A DNA stretch of 64,000 nt, taken from positions 223,501 through 287,500 of the forward strand of contig NZ_QBDX01000002.1 of the NCBI RefSeq assembly GCF_003129605.1, given 5' to 3'. Positions 32,090-59,376 of this stretch are shown in pieces. The position numbers and the translations under genes are program-made. The DNA is from Hyphobacterium indicum. GTDB taxonomy: Bacteria > Pseudomonadota > Alphaproteobacteria > Caulobacterales > Maricaulaceae. The notes below the pieces were generated by a model. It did not search any database, was not told where the DNA came from, and worked only from the letters and a program-made list of their open reading frames with translations. Within the stretch, counting starts at the first letter, position 1; every line of letters begins with the position of its first letter.

Positions 32090-33427
32090 ATGCGCCTTTC
32101 CCGTTATTTCATCCCCGTTCTGAAGGAAACGCCTTCGGACGCCCAGATTGTCTCGCACCGCCTGATGTTGCGGGCCGGCCTGATCCGTCAGGAGGCCGCC
32201 GGCATCTATGCCTGGCTGCCGCTCGGTCACCGCGTTCTGCGCAAGATCGAGCAGATCGTCCGCGAGGAACAGGACCGCGCCGGAGCGGCCGAGATGTTAA
32301 TGCCGACCCTGCAACCGGCCGATCTGTGGCGCGAAAGCGGCCGCTATGATGATTACGGGCTTGAAATGCTGCGCATCGTCGACCGCCACAAACGCGATCT
32401 GCTTTACGGCCCGACCAATGAGGAAATGATCACGGAGATATTCCGCAGCTATTGCCGCTCCTACAAGGACGTGCCCAAGCTGCTCTATCATATCCAGTGG
32501 AAATTCCGTGACGAAATCCGCCCGCGTTTCGGCGTCATGCGCGGCCGCGAATTCCTGATGAAGGATGCCTATTCTTTTGATCTGGATGAAGACAGCGCCC
32601 GCAAGGCCTATAACCGCATGTTCGTGGCCTATCTGAACACATTTGCGCGCATGGGACTGAAAGCTGTTCCGATGCGGGCCGATACCGGCCCGATTGGCGG
32701 CGACCTGTCGCACGAATTCATCATTCTGGCCGAAACCGGCGAGAGCGAGGTTTTCTGCCATGCTGATCTTGTGGAGATGGGCGCGCCGGGTCTGGATGTG
32801 GATTTCGAGGGAGATCTGCAGCCGCTCGTTGATCAGCGCACATCATTGTATGCGGCCACCGAGGAAATGCATGAGGCGGATCGTTTCGAGGCAGAAGTCC
32901 CGGCGGACAAACGCCTCTCGGCCCGCGGTATTGAAGTCGGGCATATCTTCTATTTCGGCACCAAGTATTCCGAACCGATGAAAGCCTTTGTTGCGCATCC
33001 GGATGGCAAGGAGCGCCCGGTTCACATGGGCAGTTATGGCGTGGGCGTCTCCCGTCTGATGGGCGGCATTATCGAGGCCAGCCATGACGAGAACGGCATC
33101 ATATGGCCGGAAAGCGTTGCCCCTTATGGCGTCGGCATCATCAATATGCGACCCGATGACGATGAAACGAATGCCGCCTGCGAGACCGCCTATGCGGCGC
33201 TGACCCGGGCCGGCAAGGAGCCCTTGCTGGATGATACGGCGGACCGGGCAGGGGGCAAGTTTGCCCGTATGGATCTTATCGGCCTGCCTTACCAAATGGT
33301 CATTGGCCCGCGCGGGCTGAAAGAGGGCAGGATCGAGGTCAAGGTGCGCCGGTCCGGCGAGAAGCATGAACTCTCGCTTGACGACGCAATCAATCGTCTT
33401 GCGGAAGGATCCTTCATCGATGGCTGA
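32090..33427 (+). CDS. proS: Prolyl-tRNA synthetase (short alphaproteobacterial type)
   Basis: 445-aa class II aminoacyl-tRNA synthetase. Class II motif 2 is [26 protein letters not shown] and motif 3 contains [16 protein letters not shown]; a C-terminal anticodon-binding domain covers about 345-440. The large YbaK-type editing insertion of E. coli ProS is absent, replaced by a short insert (about 205-270), as in other alphaproteobacteria. The start is taken at [11 protein letters not shown]; an in-frame ATG at 32054 would add 12 residues, and neither has a strong ribosome-binding site. It overlaps lolC by 8 bp. Confidence 0.95.
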
Positions 33428-34719
33428 TGCGAAGCTGGGCGGTGCCCGGCCTTTTGCGCCGTTTGAGTTCGTGATCGCCATGCGCTATCTGCGCGCCCGG
33501 CGCAAGGAAGGCGGCATCGCGCTGATCGCGATCATTTCGTTTATGGGCATCATGCTCGGCGTTGCCGCGCTCATCATCGTCCTCTCCATCATGAACGGTT
33601 TCCGCTACGAGTTGCTGAGCCAGCTTCTTGGGGCGCAGAGCCATATCTATGTGGATGTCCGCGGCCTGACCGAACCGGAGATCGACGACATCGAACAAGG
33701 CCTTGAGCGTATTCCGGGCGTGCTGAATGCCGGCCCGCGTTATGAGGGCCAGGCGCTTTTTACCGCCAACGGCCAGACTGTTGGCGCACAGGTGGTCGGT
33801 ATCGAGCCCGGTGACCTGGCGGATATTCCCCGGATTTCCGCCATCCCTGCCGGGGACGAACGCTATGGCCTGATCGATGGCACATTTGACACGTTCGGCG
33901 ATGGCAATCATGGCGGTGACAATATCCTGATCGGCCGCGCCCTCGCTGCGCGCCTGGATGTCGGACCGGGCGATCAGATCACTGTGCTGGCTCCGACCGG
34001 CTCCTCCGGCCCGTTCGGGACCGTGCCGCGGCGCAAGGCTTTCACCGTCGGCGGAATCTTTACCGTCGGTGTGCACCAGTTTGACCAGGTCGTGACCTTC
34101 ATGCCGCTGGAACAATCCCTGCTGTTTTTTGCGCAGGACGGGCCGCTGACCATCGAGGCCCGCGTTCAGGACCCGGTCGAGATCGGAGCGGTAATGGTTG
34201 AAGTGCGCCGTGCCGTCGGCAGCGGTGTTGCCGTTTATGACTGGCGCGACCAGAGCTCGGCCTTCTATCAGGCGCTGCAGGTGGAACGCTTCGCCATGCG
34301 GCTCATCCTGTCGGTCGTTATCCTGATTGCCGCACTCAACATCATCACCGGACTGATCATGCTGGTGAAGAACAAGGGCCGGGATATCGCCATTTTGCGC
34401 ACAATGGGCGCGACCCGTGGCTCGGTCATGCGGATATTCCTGCTGATCGGCATGATGATCGGAGCTGTCGGGGCGCTCTCGGGGGCAGCACTGGGTTTTG
34501 CCTTCGTATTGAATATTGAACATCTGCAGAACTTCATCGAGCTTCTGACCGGCGTCGATCCGTTCAACCCTGAAGTCTATTTCCTGACCCGGCTGCCCGC
34601 CCGGATTGATCCGGGCGAGGTCAGCTTCGCCATCCTCTTCGGCCTGATATCGGCCTTGCTCGCGGCCTTCCCGCCGGCCTGGCGCGCGGCCCGGCTCGAT
34701 CCTGTGGAGGCGCTGCGTT

Positions 34720-34727
<8 letters not shown>
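33420..34727 (+). CDS. lolC: Lipoprotein-releasing ABC transporter permease LolC/E
   Basis: 435-aa inner-membrane permease of the Lol system, which extracts outer-membrane lipoproteins. TM1 (about 30-60; [29 protein letters not shown]) is followed by a periplasmic MacB-like domain (about 60-280) and three C-terminal TMs of the FtsX domain ([46 protein letters not shown] coupling helix). A single permease serves as LolF-like homodimer in alphaproteobacteria. It overlaps proS by 8 bp (ATGGCTGA) and lolD by 8 bp (ATGAGTGA). Confidence 0.93.
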
Positions 34728-35412
<685 letters not shown>

Positions 35413-35443: not shown

Positions 35444-35472
35444 TTGCGGCGCGGAACAAAACGTGAAAGAAC
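35444..35472 (+). promoter_or_regulatory. Candidate promoter of the SOS-regulated small gene
   Basis: TTGCGG (35444-35449) and AAGAAC (35467-35472) are 17 bp apart. The -10 candidate is poor but overlaps the first half of the LexA box, as LexA operators commonly overlap the promoter. Confidence 0.35.
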
Positions 35473-35483
35473 ATAACCGGAAC
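35469..35483 (+). promoter_or_regulatory. LexA operator (SOS box) upstream of the sidA-like gene
   Basis: GAAC-N7-GAAC, exact (GAACATAACCGGAAC), the direct-repeat LexA site of alphaproteobacteria. It lies 22 bp before the ATG of the 30-codon gene. The same motif in the same exact form lies in front of lexA at 59362-59376. Confidence 0.8.
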
Positions 35484-35505
35484 AACACCGATAACGGAGC
35501 TGGTT

Positions 35506-35598
35506 ATGAGACGACTTCTTGCTGACGCAACTTCCGCTGCCGCCATTCTGGGCTTCGGCTGGATGATTTTGATGTGGACATCCATTCTCCTCGCCTGA
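35506..35598 (+). CDS. sidA: SidA-like SOS-induced membrane peptide (cell-division inhibitor candidate)
   Basis: 30-codon gene. The peptide begins MRRLLADAT and then forms one hydrophobic helix (about 11-29, with GFGWMILMW) that ends almost at the C-terminus, a single-pass inner-membrane peptide. GGAG at 35496-35499 is 6 bp from the ATG, an ideal Shine-Dalgarno, and a perfect LexA box lies 22 bp upstream of the ATG. In Caulobacter crescentus SidA is a 29-aa inner-membrane SOS product that blocks division through FtsW, and I recall its gene lying just upstream of dnaE, as here. Size, topology, operator and neighbourhood agree; I cannot align it with the Caulobacter protein. dnaE follows 55 bp later. 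Confidence 0.68.
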   Translation: MRRLLADATSAAAILGFGWMILMWTSILLA

Positions 35599-35653
35599 CC
35601 TTTTCGGGCAGGCTCTGCTAGGAGGGGTGAGTCGAAATCAGGGAGTATCCGGA

Positions 35654-38600
35654 ATGAGCGAGTCTTCAGGAGAGGCCGGACAGGCATTTGTCCATCTCCG
35701 CAATCGCTCGCCCTATTCGGTGCTCGAAGGGGCCATCCCGATCAAACACATGGTGGAGTTAGCGCAGGGCGGCGATATGCCGGCCATCGGCCTGACCGAT
35801 ACCAACAATCTTTTCGGGGCGCTGGAATTTTCCGAAACCCTGTCCGCTGCCGGCATACAGCCGATCACGGGCTGCACGCTTTCCATTCGTCTGGCTGAGC
35901 CTCGCCCCGGTGAAGCCGCGAGGCCGGATGGCACCATCGTGGTGCTGGCTGCCAATGAGACCGGCTATCGCAATCTTCTCAAACTCACGAGTGCCGCCTT
36001 CCTTGAGGTCGGTCCGGCCGAACCGGCCCACATCGCGGCCGGGAAACTCTTCCAGCACACAGAAGGCCTGATCGCGCTGACGGGCGGGCCTGACAGCGTG
36101 CTGAATCGTCTGATTGTTGATGATCACCGGCAGGAGGCAGGGGCCTGGCTCTCGCGTTTGCAGGAGGCGTTCGGCGACCGGCTCTATGTCGAGCTGCAAC
36201 GGCATGGCCGCCGCGAGGAATTACTGGCCGAAACCTGGCTGGTCGATGAAGCCTATGCCCGCAATCTGCCTCTGGTTGCGACCAATGAATGCTATTTTCC
36301 GGATCGGGACATGCATTCCGCCCACGATGCCTTGTTGTGCATTGCCGAGGGCGAATATCTGACGGTTGAAAACCGCCGCCGGGTCACGCCGGATCATTTT
36401 TTCGCGCCGGCAGAGGAGATGCGGGCGCGCTTTGGGGATCTGCCGGAGGCCATCTCCAACACGATCGAGATTGCGCGCCGGTGTTCCTTCAGGCCGCAGA
36501 CTCACGATCCGATCCTCCCGGGCTTCCCGACCGAAGCCGGCCGCGATGAACTCGCCGAACTCCGCGCCCAGGCCGAAGCCGGCCTGAAAGCGCGGCTGGC
36601 AGCGGTCGAAGCGGCCGCGCCGGTCGAGGAATATGAGGCGCGGCTGGCGCTGGAGCTGGAAATCATCGGTTCGATGGGGTTTCCCGGCTACTTCCTGATC
36701 GTTTCCGATTTCATCAAATGGGCAAAGGCCCATGATATTCCGGTTGGTCCCGGCCGCGGATCGGGAGCCGGATCGCTGGTCGCCTGGTCGTTGACCATTA
36801 CCGATCTTGATCCCTTGCGGTTTGGTCTGCTGTTCGAGCGTTTCCTCAATCCGGAACGGGTCTCCATGCCCGATTTCGACGTCGATTTCTGTCAAGAACG
36901 GCGCGGCGAGGTGATCCGCTATGTGCAGGAGCGCTATGGCGCCGACCATGTCGCCCAGATCATCACCTTCGGCACGCTGCAGGCCCGCGCGGTCGTGCGC
37001 GATGTCGGCCGTGTCCTGCAATTGCCGCTCGGCCTCGTCGACAAGCTGGCCAAGCTGGTCCCGGCCAATCCTGCCAATCCGGTCACGCTGGCAGAGGCGA
37101 TCGAGACCGAACCGCGGCTGCGCCTGTTTGCCGAGGAAGAGCCGGGCGTGGACCGCTTGCTGGAGATCGCGCTGAAGCTGGAAGGCCTGTATCGCAACGC
37201 GTCCACCCATGCTGCGGGCGTGGTGATTGGTGACCGGCCGCTGGACGAACTCGTGCCGCTCTACCGTGATCCGCGATCAGATATTCCCGCCACCCAGTTC
37301 AACATGAAATGGGTCGAGCCCGCCGGGCTGGTCAAATTCGACTTTCTCGGCCTCAAGACCCTGACGGTGATCGCCCGCGCCCTGAAATACATAGAACAGG
37401 CCGGAGGCGACGTACCTGATCTTGAAAATGCGGCTTTCGATGATCCGAAAGTCTATCAGCTCTTGTCGACCGGGGCGGGTATTGGTGTGTTCCAGATGGA
37501 ATCCACCGGCATGCGCGACACGCTCGCCAAGATGAAGCCCGACAAGATCGAGGATCTGATCGCGCTCATCTCCCTCTACCGGCCGGGGCCGATGAAAAAT
37601 ATCGACGTTTATGTCGACCGCAAATTCGGCCGCGCCGAGGTGGACTATCTCCATCCCGATCTCAAAACCGTTCTGGACGAGACCTACGGGGTCATCATCT
37701 ACCAGGAACAGGTGATGCAGATCGCCCAGATCCTGTCCGGATACTCGCTCGGGGAGGCCGACCTTCTGCGCCGTGCCATGGGCAAGAAGAAAAAGGAGGA
37801 GATGGCCCTCCAGAAAGTGCGCTTCCTCGAAGGGGCAGAGAAGAAAGGCGTTTCGCGCGGCAAGGCGGAATATATCTTCGAACTGGTCAATGAATTTGCC
37901 GGTTACGGCTTCAACAAATCCCACGCCGCGGCCTATGCGGCCATCGCCTACCGGACCGGCTTTCTGAAGGCCAACCATCCGGTAGAATTCCTTGCCGCCC
38001 TGATGAGCCTCGACCGCAACAATGTCGAGAAGCTGGCGGTTTTCTTCCAGGAAGCCCGGCGCATGGATGTGACCATCCGGCCGCCCGACATCAATCTTTC
38101 CGAAGCCGACTTTTCGGTGAAGGACGGAGCGGTCATCTATGCGCTTGGCGCGATCCGCAATGTCAGCCTGTCGGCCATGGAAGCGCTGGTGGAAGAACGC
38201 AAGGCCAATGGCCCCTTCGCCGACCTCTTCGATTTCGCCGAGCGCGTTGATCCGCGGCTTCTGAACAAGCGGACCCTGGAAAATCTTGCCCGCGCCGGCG
38301 CTTTCGACAGTGTCGAGCTGGATCGCGCCCGCGCCTTCGCCGCCGCCGAGACATTGTGCGCCATGTCGGCCAAGGCCCATGAAGAGCGCGAGACCGCGCA
38401 GGTCAGTCTCTTTGGCGGTGCCGATCCGGAGTCCGGCGGTCTGGCCCGCCCGAAACTGCCCGACGTGCCGCCATGGACGGCCACTCAGCGGCTGGACGAG
38501 GAGCTGGCGGCCATCGGCTATTATCTTTCCGGTCATCCGCTGGATGATCTGGCCGATATGCTGGCCAAACGCGGCGTTGTCTTCGTCGCCGATGCGCCCG

Positions 38601-39106
38601 ACCGGGTCGCGGATGGCGCGTCCGCCATTCGCATGGCCGGCGTCGTCCGCCGCCGTCAGGAACGTGTGTCACAACGCTCCGGCAAGCGTTTTGCATGGGT
38701 CACGCTCTCGGATCCGTCCGGCGAATTCGAGGTCCTGGTCAATCCTGACACGCTGCAATCCTCCCGCGATGCGTTGGAGGTCGGGGCTTCGGTCATGATC
38801 AGTGCCAGTATCGATGACAAGGAAGAACAGCTCCGCTTTTTCGCTGACAGCATAGAAGCCCTGGATGAGGCCCCCGCCGCCGCCGGGCTGAAAGTGCGTC
38901 TCGATGTGTCCGCACTGGAAAGCGTCAAGGCGCGGCTGGATCGGGCCGCAGACAGTGCGAAAGGCGAGGGGATTGTTCATCTTGTCCTGTCGGTCGCCGA
39001 CGGCAGTGAAGCGGAATTGCGTCTGCCCGGCCGCGTGCCGACGACACCACCTGTCCAGGCCGCTCTGCGCGGGGTCAAGGGCGTGGAAAGCGTCGAGCTG
39101 ATCTAG
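35654..39106 (+). CDS. dnaE: DNA polymerase III alpha subunit
   Basis: 1150-aa replicative polymerase. The PHP domain is at the N-terminus (FVHLRNRSPYSVLEGAIPIKHMVELA...AIGLTDTNNLFGALEF). The C-family polymerase palm has catalytic Asp407 and Asp409 in PDFDVDF. The fingers region follows (YQEQVMQIAQILSGYSLGEADLLRRAMGKKK; NKSHAAAYAAIAY), then tandem HhH and an OB-fold (about 965-1045). Phe instead of Ile in PDFDVDF is also seen in E. coli. An in-frame GTG at 35627 is rejected in favour of ATG 35654 with GGGAG just upstream. It follows the sidA-like gene. Confidence 0.97.
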   Translation: MSESSGEAGQAFVHLRNRSPYSVLEGAIPIKHMVELAQGGDMPAIGLTDTNNLFGALEFSETLSAAGIQPITGCTLSIRLAEPRPGEAARPDGTIVVLAANETGYRNLLKLTSAAFLEVGPAEPAHIAAGKLFQHTEGLIALTGGPDSVLNRLIVDDHRQEAGAWLSRLQEAFGDRLYVELQRHGRREELLAETWLVDEAYARNLPLVATNECYFPDRDMHSAHDALLCIAEGEYLTVENRRRVTPDHFFAPAEEMRARFGDLPEAISNTIEIARRCSFRPQTHDPILPGFPTEAGRDELAELRAQAEAGLKARLAAVEAAAPVEEYEARLALELEIIGSMGFPGYFLIVSDFIKWAKAHDIPVGPGRGSGAGSLVAWSLTITDLDPLRFGLLFERFLNPERVSMPDFDVDFCQERRGEVIRYVQERYGADHVAQIITFGTLQARAVVRDVGRVLQLPLGLVDKLAKLVPANPANPVTLAEAIETEPRLRLFAEEEPGVDRLLEIALKLEGLYRNASTHAAGVVIGDRPLDELVPLYRDPRSDIPATQFNMKWVEPAGLVKFDFLGLKTLTVIARALKYIEQAGGDVPDLENAAFDDPKVYQLLSTGAGIGVFQMESTGMRDTLAKMKPDKIEDLIALISLYRPGPMKNIDVYVDRKFGRAEVDYLHPDLKTVLDETYGVIIYQEQVMQIAQILSGYSLGEADLLRRAMGKKKKEEMALQKVRFLEGAEKKGVSRGKAEYIFELVNEFAGYGFNKSHAAAYAAIAYRTGFLKANHPVEFLAALMSLDRNNVEKLAVFFQEARRMDVTIRPPDINLSEADFSVKDGAVIYALGAIRNVSLSAMEALVEERKANGPFADLFDFAERVDPRLLNKRTLENLARAGAFDSVELDRARAFAAAETLCAMSAKAHEERETAQVSLFGGADPESGGLARPKLPDVPPWTATQRLDEELAAIGYYLSGHPLDDLADMLAKRGVVFVADAPDRVADGASAIRMAGVVRRRQERVSQRSGKRFAWVTLSDPSGEFEVLVNPDTLQSSRDALEVGASVMISASIDDKEEQLRFFADSIEALDEAPAAAGLKVRLDVSALESVKARLDRAADSAKGEGIVHLVLSVADGSEAELRLPGRVPTTPPVQAALRGVKGVESVELI

Positions 39107-56610: not shown

Positions 56611-58659
56611 ATGGTAATCGGCCAAATGGATCTGGCCAGACCGGTCCGCATGGCCATCTGGGCGCCCGTCGCCCTGGGAGCAGGGTCGATTGTCTATTAC
56701 GGCTTGCAGGCAGAACCGCCTCCGGCGCTGACCGGCGTGCTCGCCACCGCCGGGCTGCTGGCCGTGTTGGCTGGCTGGACGACAGCGGCCGCAAGGCCTC
56801 TCCTGTGGTCGATCCTGATGCTGGCGGCATTTGCCGCCTTCGGCTTCGCACGCGCACAGCACCACACGCTGTCGCAAGACATGATCTTTGTTGAGGACTC
56901 TGGCCGGGCACGGGCTGTGGAGGGCTGGATAGAGGCTGTCCAGAACAGCAATGGCCGGGAGCGGGTCATTTTGCGGGTCGCTTCGCTGGACGGTATGGAC
57001 CGGCCGCCGGAGCGCATCCGTTTCTATGCACGCCGCGGCGAATTCGGGCCGGGCGAGGGCGTGTCTGCGCGGGTCGTGCTGACGCCGCCGCGGCGGCCGG
57101 CGGTTCCGGGCGGGTATGATCCGGCCTTTGCCGCATGGTTCTCCGGTCTTGGCGGGACGGGCTATGCCATTGCCCCGCTCGCGGCGGCGGAGGTGAACGG
57201 GGACCGGTGGCGCCGCCTGCTCGCCCGCTGGCGCTGGCAGATGGCCGAACATATCCGTGAACGGGCCGCGCCGGAGACATCGGGCATTGCCGCGGCCCTG
57301 ATCACCGGCGACCGGTCCGGCATTCCGCCGGATCAGGCGGAAGCCCTGCGCGTAGCGGGGCTGGGGCACATATTGGCGATATCCGGTCTGCATATGAGTC
57401 TCTTTGCCGGCGGGCTGTTTTTCGTGACGCGGGCCATGGGGGCCGCCATTCCTGCATTCGCCCGGAAATATGATCCGCGCATTCCGGCAGCACTCATCGC
57501 GCTGACCGGTGCACTGCTTTACCTGATCCTGTCCGGCGCGTCGGTCTCGACCCAGCGCGCTTTCGTCATGGTCTCGGTGGTCCTGCTGGGTGTGCTGCTG
57601 AAACGCCGGGCGATTTCCCTGCAATCCATCGCCCTGGCCGCAACCATCATCCTGATCCTTCAACCGCAAAGCATTCTGGCACCGGGTTTCCAGATGTCAT
57701 TTGCCGCCGCTTCGGCCCTGGTCGCGGCGTTCGATTTGTGGCGGCGGCGTGAAACCCATGTCCGGCAGAAGGGAACGATTGACCGATTTATCGGCTTCTG
57801 GGGAACCCTGTCCTTTTCATCTCTGGTGGCCGGCAGTGCGACGGCGGCCTATGCCGCCTTTCATTTCAACCGCATTGCCGTCTACGGGCTGGCCGCCAAT
57901 CTGGCCGCCATGCCGGTATTCTCTCTGGTGGTGATGCCGGCGGGCGCGCTGGCATTGGCGCTCGCTCCCTTCGGGCTGGACGGGCCCGCGCTCGCGGTGA
58001 TGAGCCGCGGCCTGATATGGGTGGTGTGGATCGCGGAAGGCGTGGCGTCCTGGCCGGGCTCTCTCGCACCGGCCGCCTCGGCACCGGGGGCCGTGCTGGC
58101 GCTCTATGCCTTCGGATTTGTGCTGCTGGTCGCCGCCTCCAGTCTGGTCCGGCGTATCGGCGCTGTGGCGATGATCGCCGCCTATGCGGCCTGGTTTGTC
58201 CACCAGCCCCCTGACGCCTTTATCAGCGAGGAAGGCGTGGTTCTGGCCAGGTTTGAGGACGGGGAGGGCGCAGGCTGGGCCAGTACAGACCGGCGGCGGG
58301 CCCGCTTTGCAACATCGGTATTTCTCGAACAGGCGGGAGAGCCGGTCCGCCCGGGCCGGGACGGGATAGAATGTGATCCGCGCGGCTGCGCGGGCCGGGC
58401 CCAAGGTTTGGCCATCACCGTCAGCGAAAGCGGGGAAACGCTTGGCGAAGACTGCGCTGTCTCCGATATTGTTGTGCTGAAAGCCTTTGCCTCGCCCGTC
58501 GAGCGGGCCGTCTGTGAAGCCCGGCTGGTGGACCTGGGCGAACTGCAGGACGGTGGCTCCATCGCCCTGTGGCTGCAGGATGGCCGCATTGTCCGCGAAT
58601 CGCCGGTCGAGGCCCGGCGTGGCCGGCGCATCTGGGCAGTTAGTGATAGCGGCGGATAA
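56611..58659 (+). CDS. comEC: ComEC/Rec2 family DNA-uptake channel protein
   Basis: About 682-aa membrane protein. The N-terminal DUF4131 part (two TMs, then an OB-like domain at about 95-200) is followed by the competence domain (about 215-500; [64 protein letters not shown]), which forms the inner-membrane channel. The C-terminal metallo-beta-lactamase domain of Bacillus ComEC is missing; only about 120 residues with a few cysteines follow. The start is uncertain: the open frame reaches 56413 but overlaps gltX. ATG 56611 is used and ATG 56626 is possible. The 3' end overlaps lexA by 20 bp on opposite strands. Confidence 0.85.
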
Positions 58660-59320
58660 GCCCTACCAGCTTGCCCTGGACGCGGACACGGTCCGGCCCG
58701 AAAATGCGGGTCTCATAAGCCGGATTGGCGGCTTCCAGGGCCACGGACCCGCCTTTCTTGCGCAGGCGTTTCAGCGTGGCTTCTTCCTCGTCGATCAGCG
58801 CCACCACGATATCGCCATTGGTGGCGGTATCGCAGCGCTCGATGATCACGATATCGCCGTCGAGAATGCCCGCATCGATCATGGAATCGCCCTCAATCTC
58901 CAGCGCGTAGTGTTCGCCGCGCCCGCCGGCGAGATCCGGCGGCAACATGATGCGGTCCTGCTCGTGCTGGATGGCCTCGATCGGCACACCGGCAGCGATC
59001 TTGCCGAGCACGGCGATCTCGATTCCCTGCGCGGGTTCCGGATCGGCCCCGAAATCGGGACGGACCACATTCCCGGCATCAGCGGCAATCGCAGCCGGCG
59101 AGGCGGAGTCCGGCATTTTCAACACTTCCAGCGCCCGCGCGCGATGCGCGAGGCGTCGGATAAAGCCGCGTTCTTCCAGAGCGGTGATCAGGCGGTGCAC
59201 GCCGGACTTGGAGGCCAGGTCCAGCGCATCCTTCATTTCTTCAAAGGAGGGCGAGACGCCATCCTCGCTCAAACGCTTGTTGATGAAGAGCAAAAGCTGG
59301 TGTTGTTTGCGTGTCAGCAT
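58640..59320 (-). CDS. lexA: LexA repressor
   Basis: 226-aa SOS repressor. The N-terminal winged-helix domain (1-65; [31 protein letters not shown]) binds the operator. The hinge leads to the Ala110-Gly111 cleavage site (KIAAGVP). The latent protease dyad is Ser146 (EGDSM) and Lys184 (EEATLKRL). The Ser-Lys spacing of 38 residues is normal. The hinge is longer than in E. coli (202 aa), as in other alphaproteobacteria. A LexA box overlaps its promoter. An IS1595-type element is inserted immediately upstream. Its 3' end runs 20 bp into comEC. Confidence 0.96.
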
Positions 59321-59361: not shown

Positions 59362-59376
59362 GTTCTATGAGTGTTC
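59362..59376 (-). promoter_or_regulatory. LexA operator (SOS box) of lexA
   Basis: GTTC-N7-GTTC on the plus strand (GTTCTATGAGTGTTC), i.e. GAAC-N7-GAAC read toward lexA. It overlaps the -10 box of the lexA promoter, so lexA is autorepressed. Confidence 0.85.

Follow-up and report, generated by a model that had tools for sequence, protein, structure and literature searches.

SidA of Caulobacter crescentus is a peptide of 29 amino acids that is induced in the SOS response and interacts with FtsW (PMC4211646); the published facts on SidA used in this work were taken from PMC4211646 and PMC12700426. DidA of Caulobacter likewise inhibits division, has one helix, is small and is induced upon DNA damage, but it comprises 71 amino acids, is SOS-independent, is under different control and binds FtsN (PMC4211646). 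YneA of Bacillus and SosA of Staphylococcus are also SOS-induced inhibitors of division that reside in the membrane. Both are larger than SidA and are not known to be related to it in sequence. For YneA, interaction with FtsW has been reported (PMC13396833).

Here we analyzed a stretch of 64,000 nucleotides from Hyphobacterium indicum (hereafter “the window”). A preliminary description had proposed that a 30-codon ORF between lolD and dnaE represents probable sidA, and had portrayed SidA of Caulobacter as a 29-aa SOS-induced peptide acting via FtsW, in agreement with the literature (PMC4211646). Indeed, all elements described for the locus could be retrieved. The ORF is located at 35506–35598 on the plus strand, between lolD (34720–35412, plus strand) and dnaE (35654–39106, plus strand; ATG at 35654, with an in-frame GTG also at 35627), and its product is MRRLLADATSAAAILGFGWMILMWTSILLA (30 aa), followed by the stop codon. 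The start codon is preceded at a distance of six bases by the Shine-Dalgarno sequence GGAG (35496–35499, plus strand), which is conserved in relatives, and the exact GAAC-N7-GAAC LexA-type box GAACATAACCGGAAC (35469–35483, plus strand) ends 22 bp upstream of the ATG. The single hydrophobic helix is also borne out: AlphaFold2 predicts one helix spanning residues 2–29 (mean pLDDT 94.3). The peptide had no match in Pfam and NCBIfam scans, and a simple scan of the surroundings of the ORF detected neither a sigma-70 consensus promoter nor a plus-strand terminator. It is plausible that the ORF is unannotated in public records. The peptide resembles SidA of C. crescentus in its locus before dnaE, its length (30 versus 29 aa), its single membrane helix, the LexA-type boxes and, as detailed below, in profile similarity, but differs in that the curated SidA model does not match it.

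The preliminary description had made its proposal depend on conservation of ORF and box in close relatives and on codon-position-dependent variation of the peptide. The N-terminus of DnaE served as query against 200 genomes of the order, and in about 110 of these the region 5’ of dnaE was inspected, covering four families (Maricaulaceae, Caulobacteraceae, f5 and f4). An ORF of 29–34 codons encoding one helix is present directly 5’ of dnaE in 45 of 45 readable Maricaulaceae genomes, i.e. in the family of the window, and in 37 of 37 genomes of the Caulobacteraceae, following LexA-type boxes in both families. The exact box precedes the ORF in 34 of the 45 Maricaulaceae genomes, while the remaining 11 carry paired 7-of-8 boxes, 25 bp apart, in place of an exact one. 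Family f5 possesses a more divergent one-helix ORF of 25–33 aa (14/14 genomes read). In family f4, most genomes lack the ORF, and nothing fitting was found in several lolD-dnaE gaps of only 44–89 bp. The four closest genomes differ at 0, 3 and 22 sites in codon positions 1, 2 and 3, respectively, corresponding to a pN/pS of 0.05, and within-genus values for Maricaulis (g9), Caulobacter-like (g26), Brevundimonas-like (g19) and other genera range from 0.24 to 0.40. The third-position bias was observed in every genus tested for pN/pS. Because of this bias and the pN/pS values of 0.05–0.40, we infer that the ORF is translated.

To relate the peptide to SidA, we employed the NCBIfam model NF033228 (div_inhib_SidA; curated cut-off 35 bits), which matches a Caulobacter peptide from the dnaE-upstream locus with 71.6 bits. 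Above the cut-off, it detected 25 peptides in the 200 genomes of the order, all of them in Caulobacteraceae. Comparison of coordinates placed 24 of these directly before dnaE (for the remaining one the position of dnaE is unlisted), which confirms that sidA adjoins dnaE, as the preliminary description had suggested. One of 14 control genomes scored above the cut-off, by listing C. vibrioides. There was no above-cut-off match in the Maricaulaceae among the 200 genomes and none was listed at the locus in the genome of H. indicum; the window peptide yielded no match at E-values up to 1 and stayed below 35 bits. Thus, alignment with SidA, as recommended in the preliminary description, failed for the curated model and succeeded for family profiles. 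The profile of the Maricaulaceae peptides aligned with that of the Caulobacteraceae peptides with a probability of 95.6% and a score of 33.2, whereas 100 control profiles, in which shuffling was confined to the N-terminal block and the membrane block, all remained below this score (best score 21.0). In this alignment, the N-terminal pattern and the GF core match SidA. The C-terminal third of Caulobacteraceae SidA differs, while Trp24 is near-invariant in the window peptide's own family, and the window peptide shares only about 17–34% identity with individual SidA sequences from Caulobacteraceae. The f5 profile scored 22.6 as compared to 21.0 for the best shuffle, which is no more than suggestive of a relationship with SidA. 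In addition, a DNA pattern comprising the box, 62–92 bases and a GF-x-WM core was run over 84,980 genomes. It returned 77 matches, in 71 of which, including Maricaulis maris and Caulobacter segnis, dnaE follows the peptide; conservation of the GF.WM core among these matches is in part a consequence of the pattern itself.

Taken together, four features of SidA in a broad sense are found here: position immediately upstream of dnaE, about 29 aa with one membrane helix, a LexA-type box in the promoter, and homology at the level of family profiles. As the locus is the same as that of the NF033228 matches and is accompanied by profile similarity, coding constraint and boxes, the ORF is very probably the sidA gene of this lineage; shared length and topology likewise support the earlier reading as probable sidA. 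We are confident, with modest reservation, that it represents an ortholog of Caulobacter sidA encoding a putative LexA-repressed, SOS-induced inhibitor of FtsW-dependent division. Judged from these comparisons, NF033228 as curated covers only part of the SidA family. Control logic and mechanism have been described in Caulobacter. What this work adds is a diverged member, a conserved tandem operator, a conserved GANTC site before dnaE (see below) and a probable distribution across the class.

Alternatively, the box could serve dnaE and the small ORF could encode a leader peptide that adjusts the expression of dnaE and does not inhibit division. Such a role would fit the short distance from the ORF stop to the dnaE match, which ranges from 11 to about 340 bp, and the 3’ half of the ORF, which together with the ~20 bases that follow hardly varies among four close genomes. 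However, this spacing is highly variable, constraint at the protein level acts on the peptide sequence and its membrane helix, the junction does not fold better as RNA than shuffled sequences do, and in Caulobacter the peptide encoded here is SidA, known from experiment (PMC4211646). We consider a leader function very unlikely. RNA structure across the ORF end, considered for its strong conservation, was rejected, folding not exceeding shuffles (z −0.04). The nearly invariant stretch extends from about 35557 to 35618 and includes synonymous sites, whereas differences in lolD and dnaE reach about 20% among the same four genomes; possibly, it contains a nested dnaE promoter. Between the ORF stop and dnaE, the window also carries GAGTC (35629–35633), a GANTC site of the CcrM methylation type. 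Of 92 genomes, 61 have a GANTC in the interval from the sidA stop to dnaE, as compared to 18.8 expected from shuffling, and the site of Caulobacter overlaps with the stop codon of sidA (TGAGTC). Its conservation suggests a control of dnaE that is linked to methylation or the cell cycle.

For the sidA ortholog, the following mechanism is proposed by analogy with Caulobacter. LexA would keep the gene off by binding to one box or to two boxes in tandem. Upon DNA damage, RecA would be activated and LexA cleaved, leading to synthesis of the 30-aa peptide, which would insert into the inner membrane as one helix and hold the FtsW/FtsI/FtsN complex inactive, preventing division until repair is done. 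LexA repression, SOS induction, FtsW as target and the division block would accordingly be expected in H. indicum as well. FtsW, the published target of SidA, is indeed encoded in this genome. Mutations suppressing SidA were reported at A31, F145 and A246 of FtsW; A31K suppresses SidA and A31 is thought to affect SidA binding, while F145 and A246 are linked to hyperactive division (PMC4211646, PMC12700426). The Caulobacter FtsW sequence used for numbering carries exactly these three residues, and FtsW of H. indicum has Val, Phe and Ala at the respective positions, i.e. two of the three are conserved. Exchange of A31 for Val may indicate that the details of SidA contact differ, and the change of position 31 along with SidA fits co-divergence in this one comparison. 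The same substitution, together with the divergence of the peptide and its different C-terminal third, could also mean that the ORF encodes an SOS-induced membrane peptide that shares its ancestor with SidA but has another target, e.g. the membrane itself. DinQ of E. coli, described as an SOS-controlled single-helix peptide that can be toxic at the membrane (PMC3567139), would be a precedent. As the alignment with SidA includes the GF core as well as the pattern at the N-terminus, and as the genome encodes an FtsW that retains F145 and A246, we regard a different target as very unlikely.

Next to the exact box, a second box, GAACAAAACGTGAAA, which matches in 7 of 8 bases, is located at 35454–35468 on the plus strand and is also found in the other members of the genus read. 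The two boxes abut here and are thus 15 bp apart, in contrast to 16–18 bp in most Caulobacteraceae. LexA-type boxes 5’ of the micro-ORF were found across the whole order, and the second site, typically GAACAAAANNNGAAT or GAAA, recurs order-wide with a spacing of 15, 16–18 or ~25 bp. From the sequences, 35454–35468 and 35469–35483 are recognized as a tandem operator of putative LexA sites, and the near-perfect second box beside the exact one is a new feature that is conserved in the order. A lone exact box is not significant by itself because the window contains four as compared to 1.4 expected, and the case for sidA therefore rests on conservation. The presence of ORF and box at the same place across two families and under purifying selection refutes the idea that both arose by chance, to which the expected number of boxes per window might lend itself, and we give it virtually no credence. 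The window also comprises lexA itself (58646–59320, minus strand; TIGR00498, 175.5 bits), which lies behind the same type of box (GAACACTCATAGAAC, exact, 59362–59376, minus strand).

Outside the order, 89 genomes of other alphaproteobacterial families were examined. In 14 of them, which belong to 11 families, a one-helix micro-ORF upstream of dnaE has an exact box 5–60 bp in front of it, as compared to 0.15 expected from shuffled upstream DNA. When 13 of these peptides were scored with a SidA profile, 8 surpassed all 200 pattern-keeping shuffles and others, e.g. L216, L222 and L290, did not; common descent with SidA is therefore likely for some. On balance, it seems probable that a LexA-controlled one-helix micropeptide before dnaE constitutes an old, largely overlooked division checkpoint of Alphaproteobacteria that is not confined to Caulobacter, was lost in some lineages and evolves fast enough to escape NF033228. 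The checkpoint effector of a single model organism would thus become a feature conserved in the order and probably in a wider part of the class. LexA boxes followed by a one-helix ORF before dnaE provide a simple search rule, and the natural series of SidA-FtsW pairs could allow the binding surface to be read by co-variation.

Further boxes were noticed. The one at 34518–34532 is attributed to chance, as it sits inside the coding ORF 33366–34727, upstream of lolD. Elsewhere in the H. indicum genome, an exact box at 141228–141242 of contig C3 is located between divergent genes, which by eye we take to be uvrA and ssb. Its occurrence there and before lexA speaks for the sidA interpretation of the boxed ORF. 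An A-rich exact box at C2:529116–529130 lies between divergent genes that appear to encode a response regulator of the DivK type and a ROK-type kinase, and could mark an unusual SOS target.
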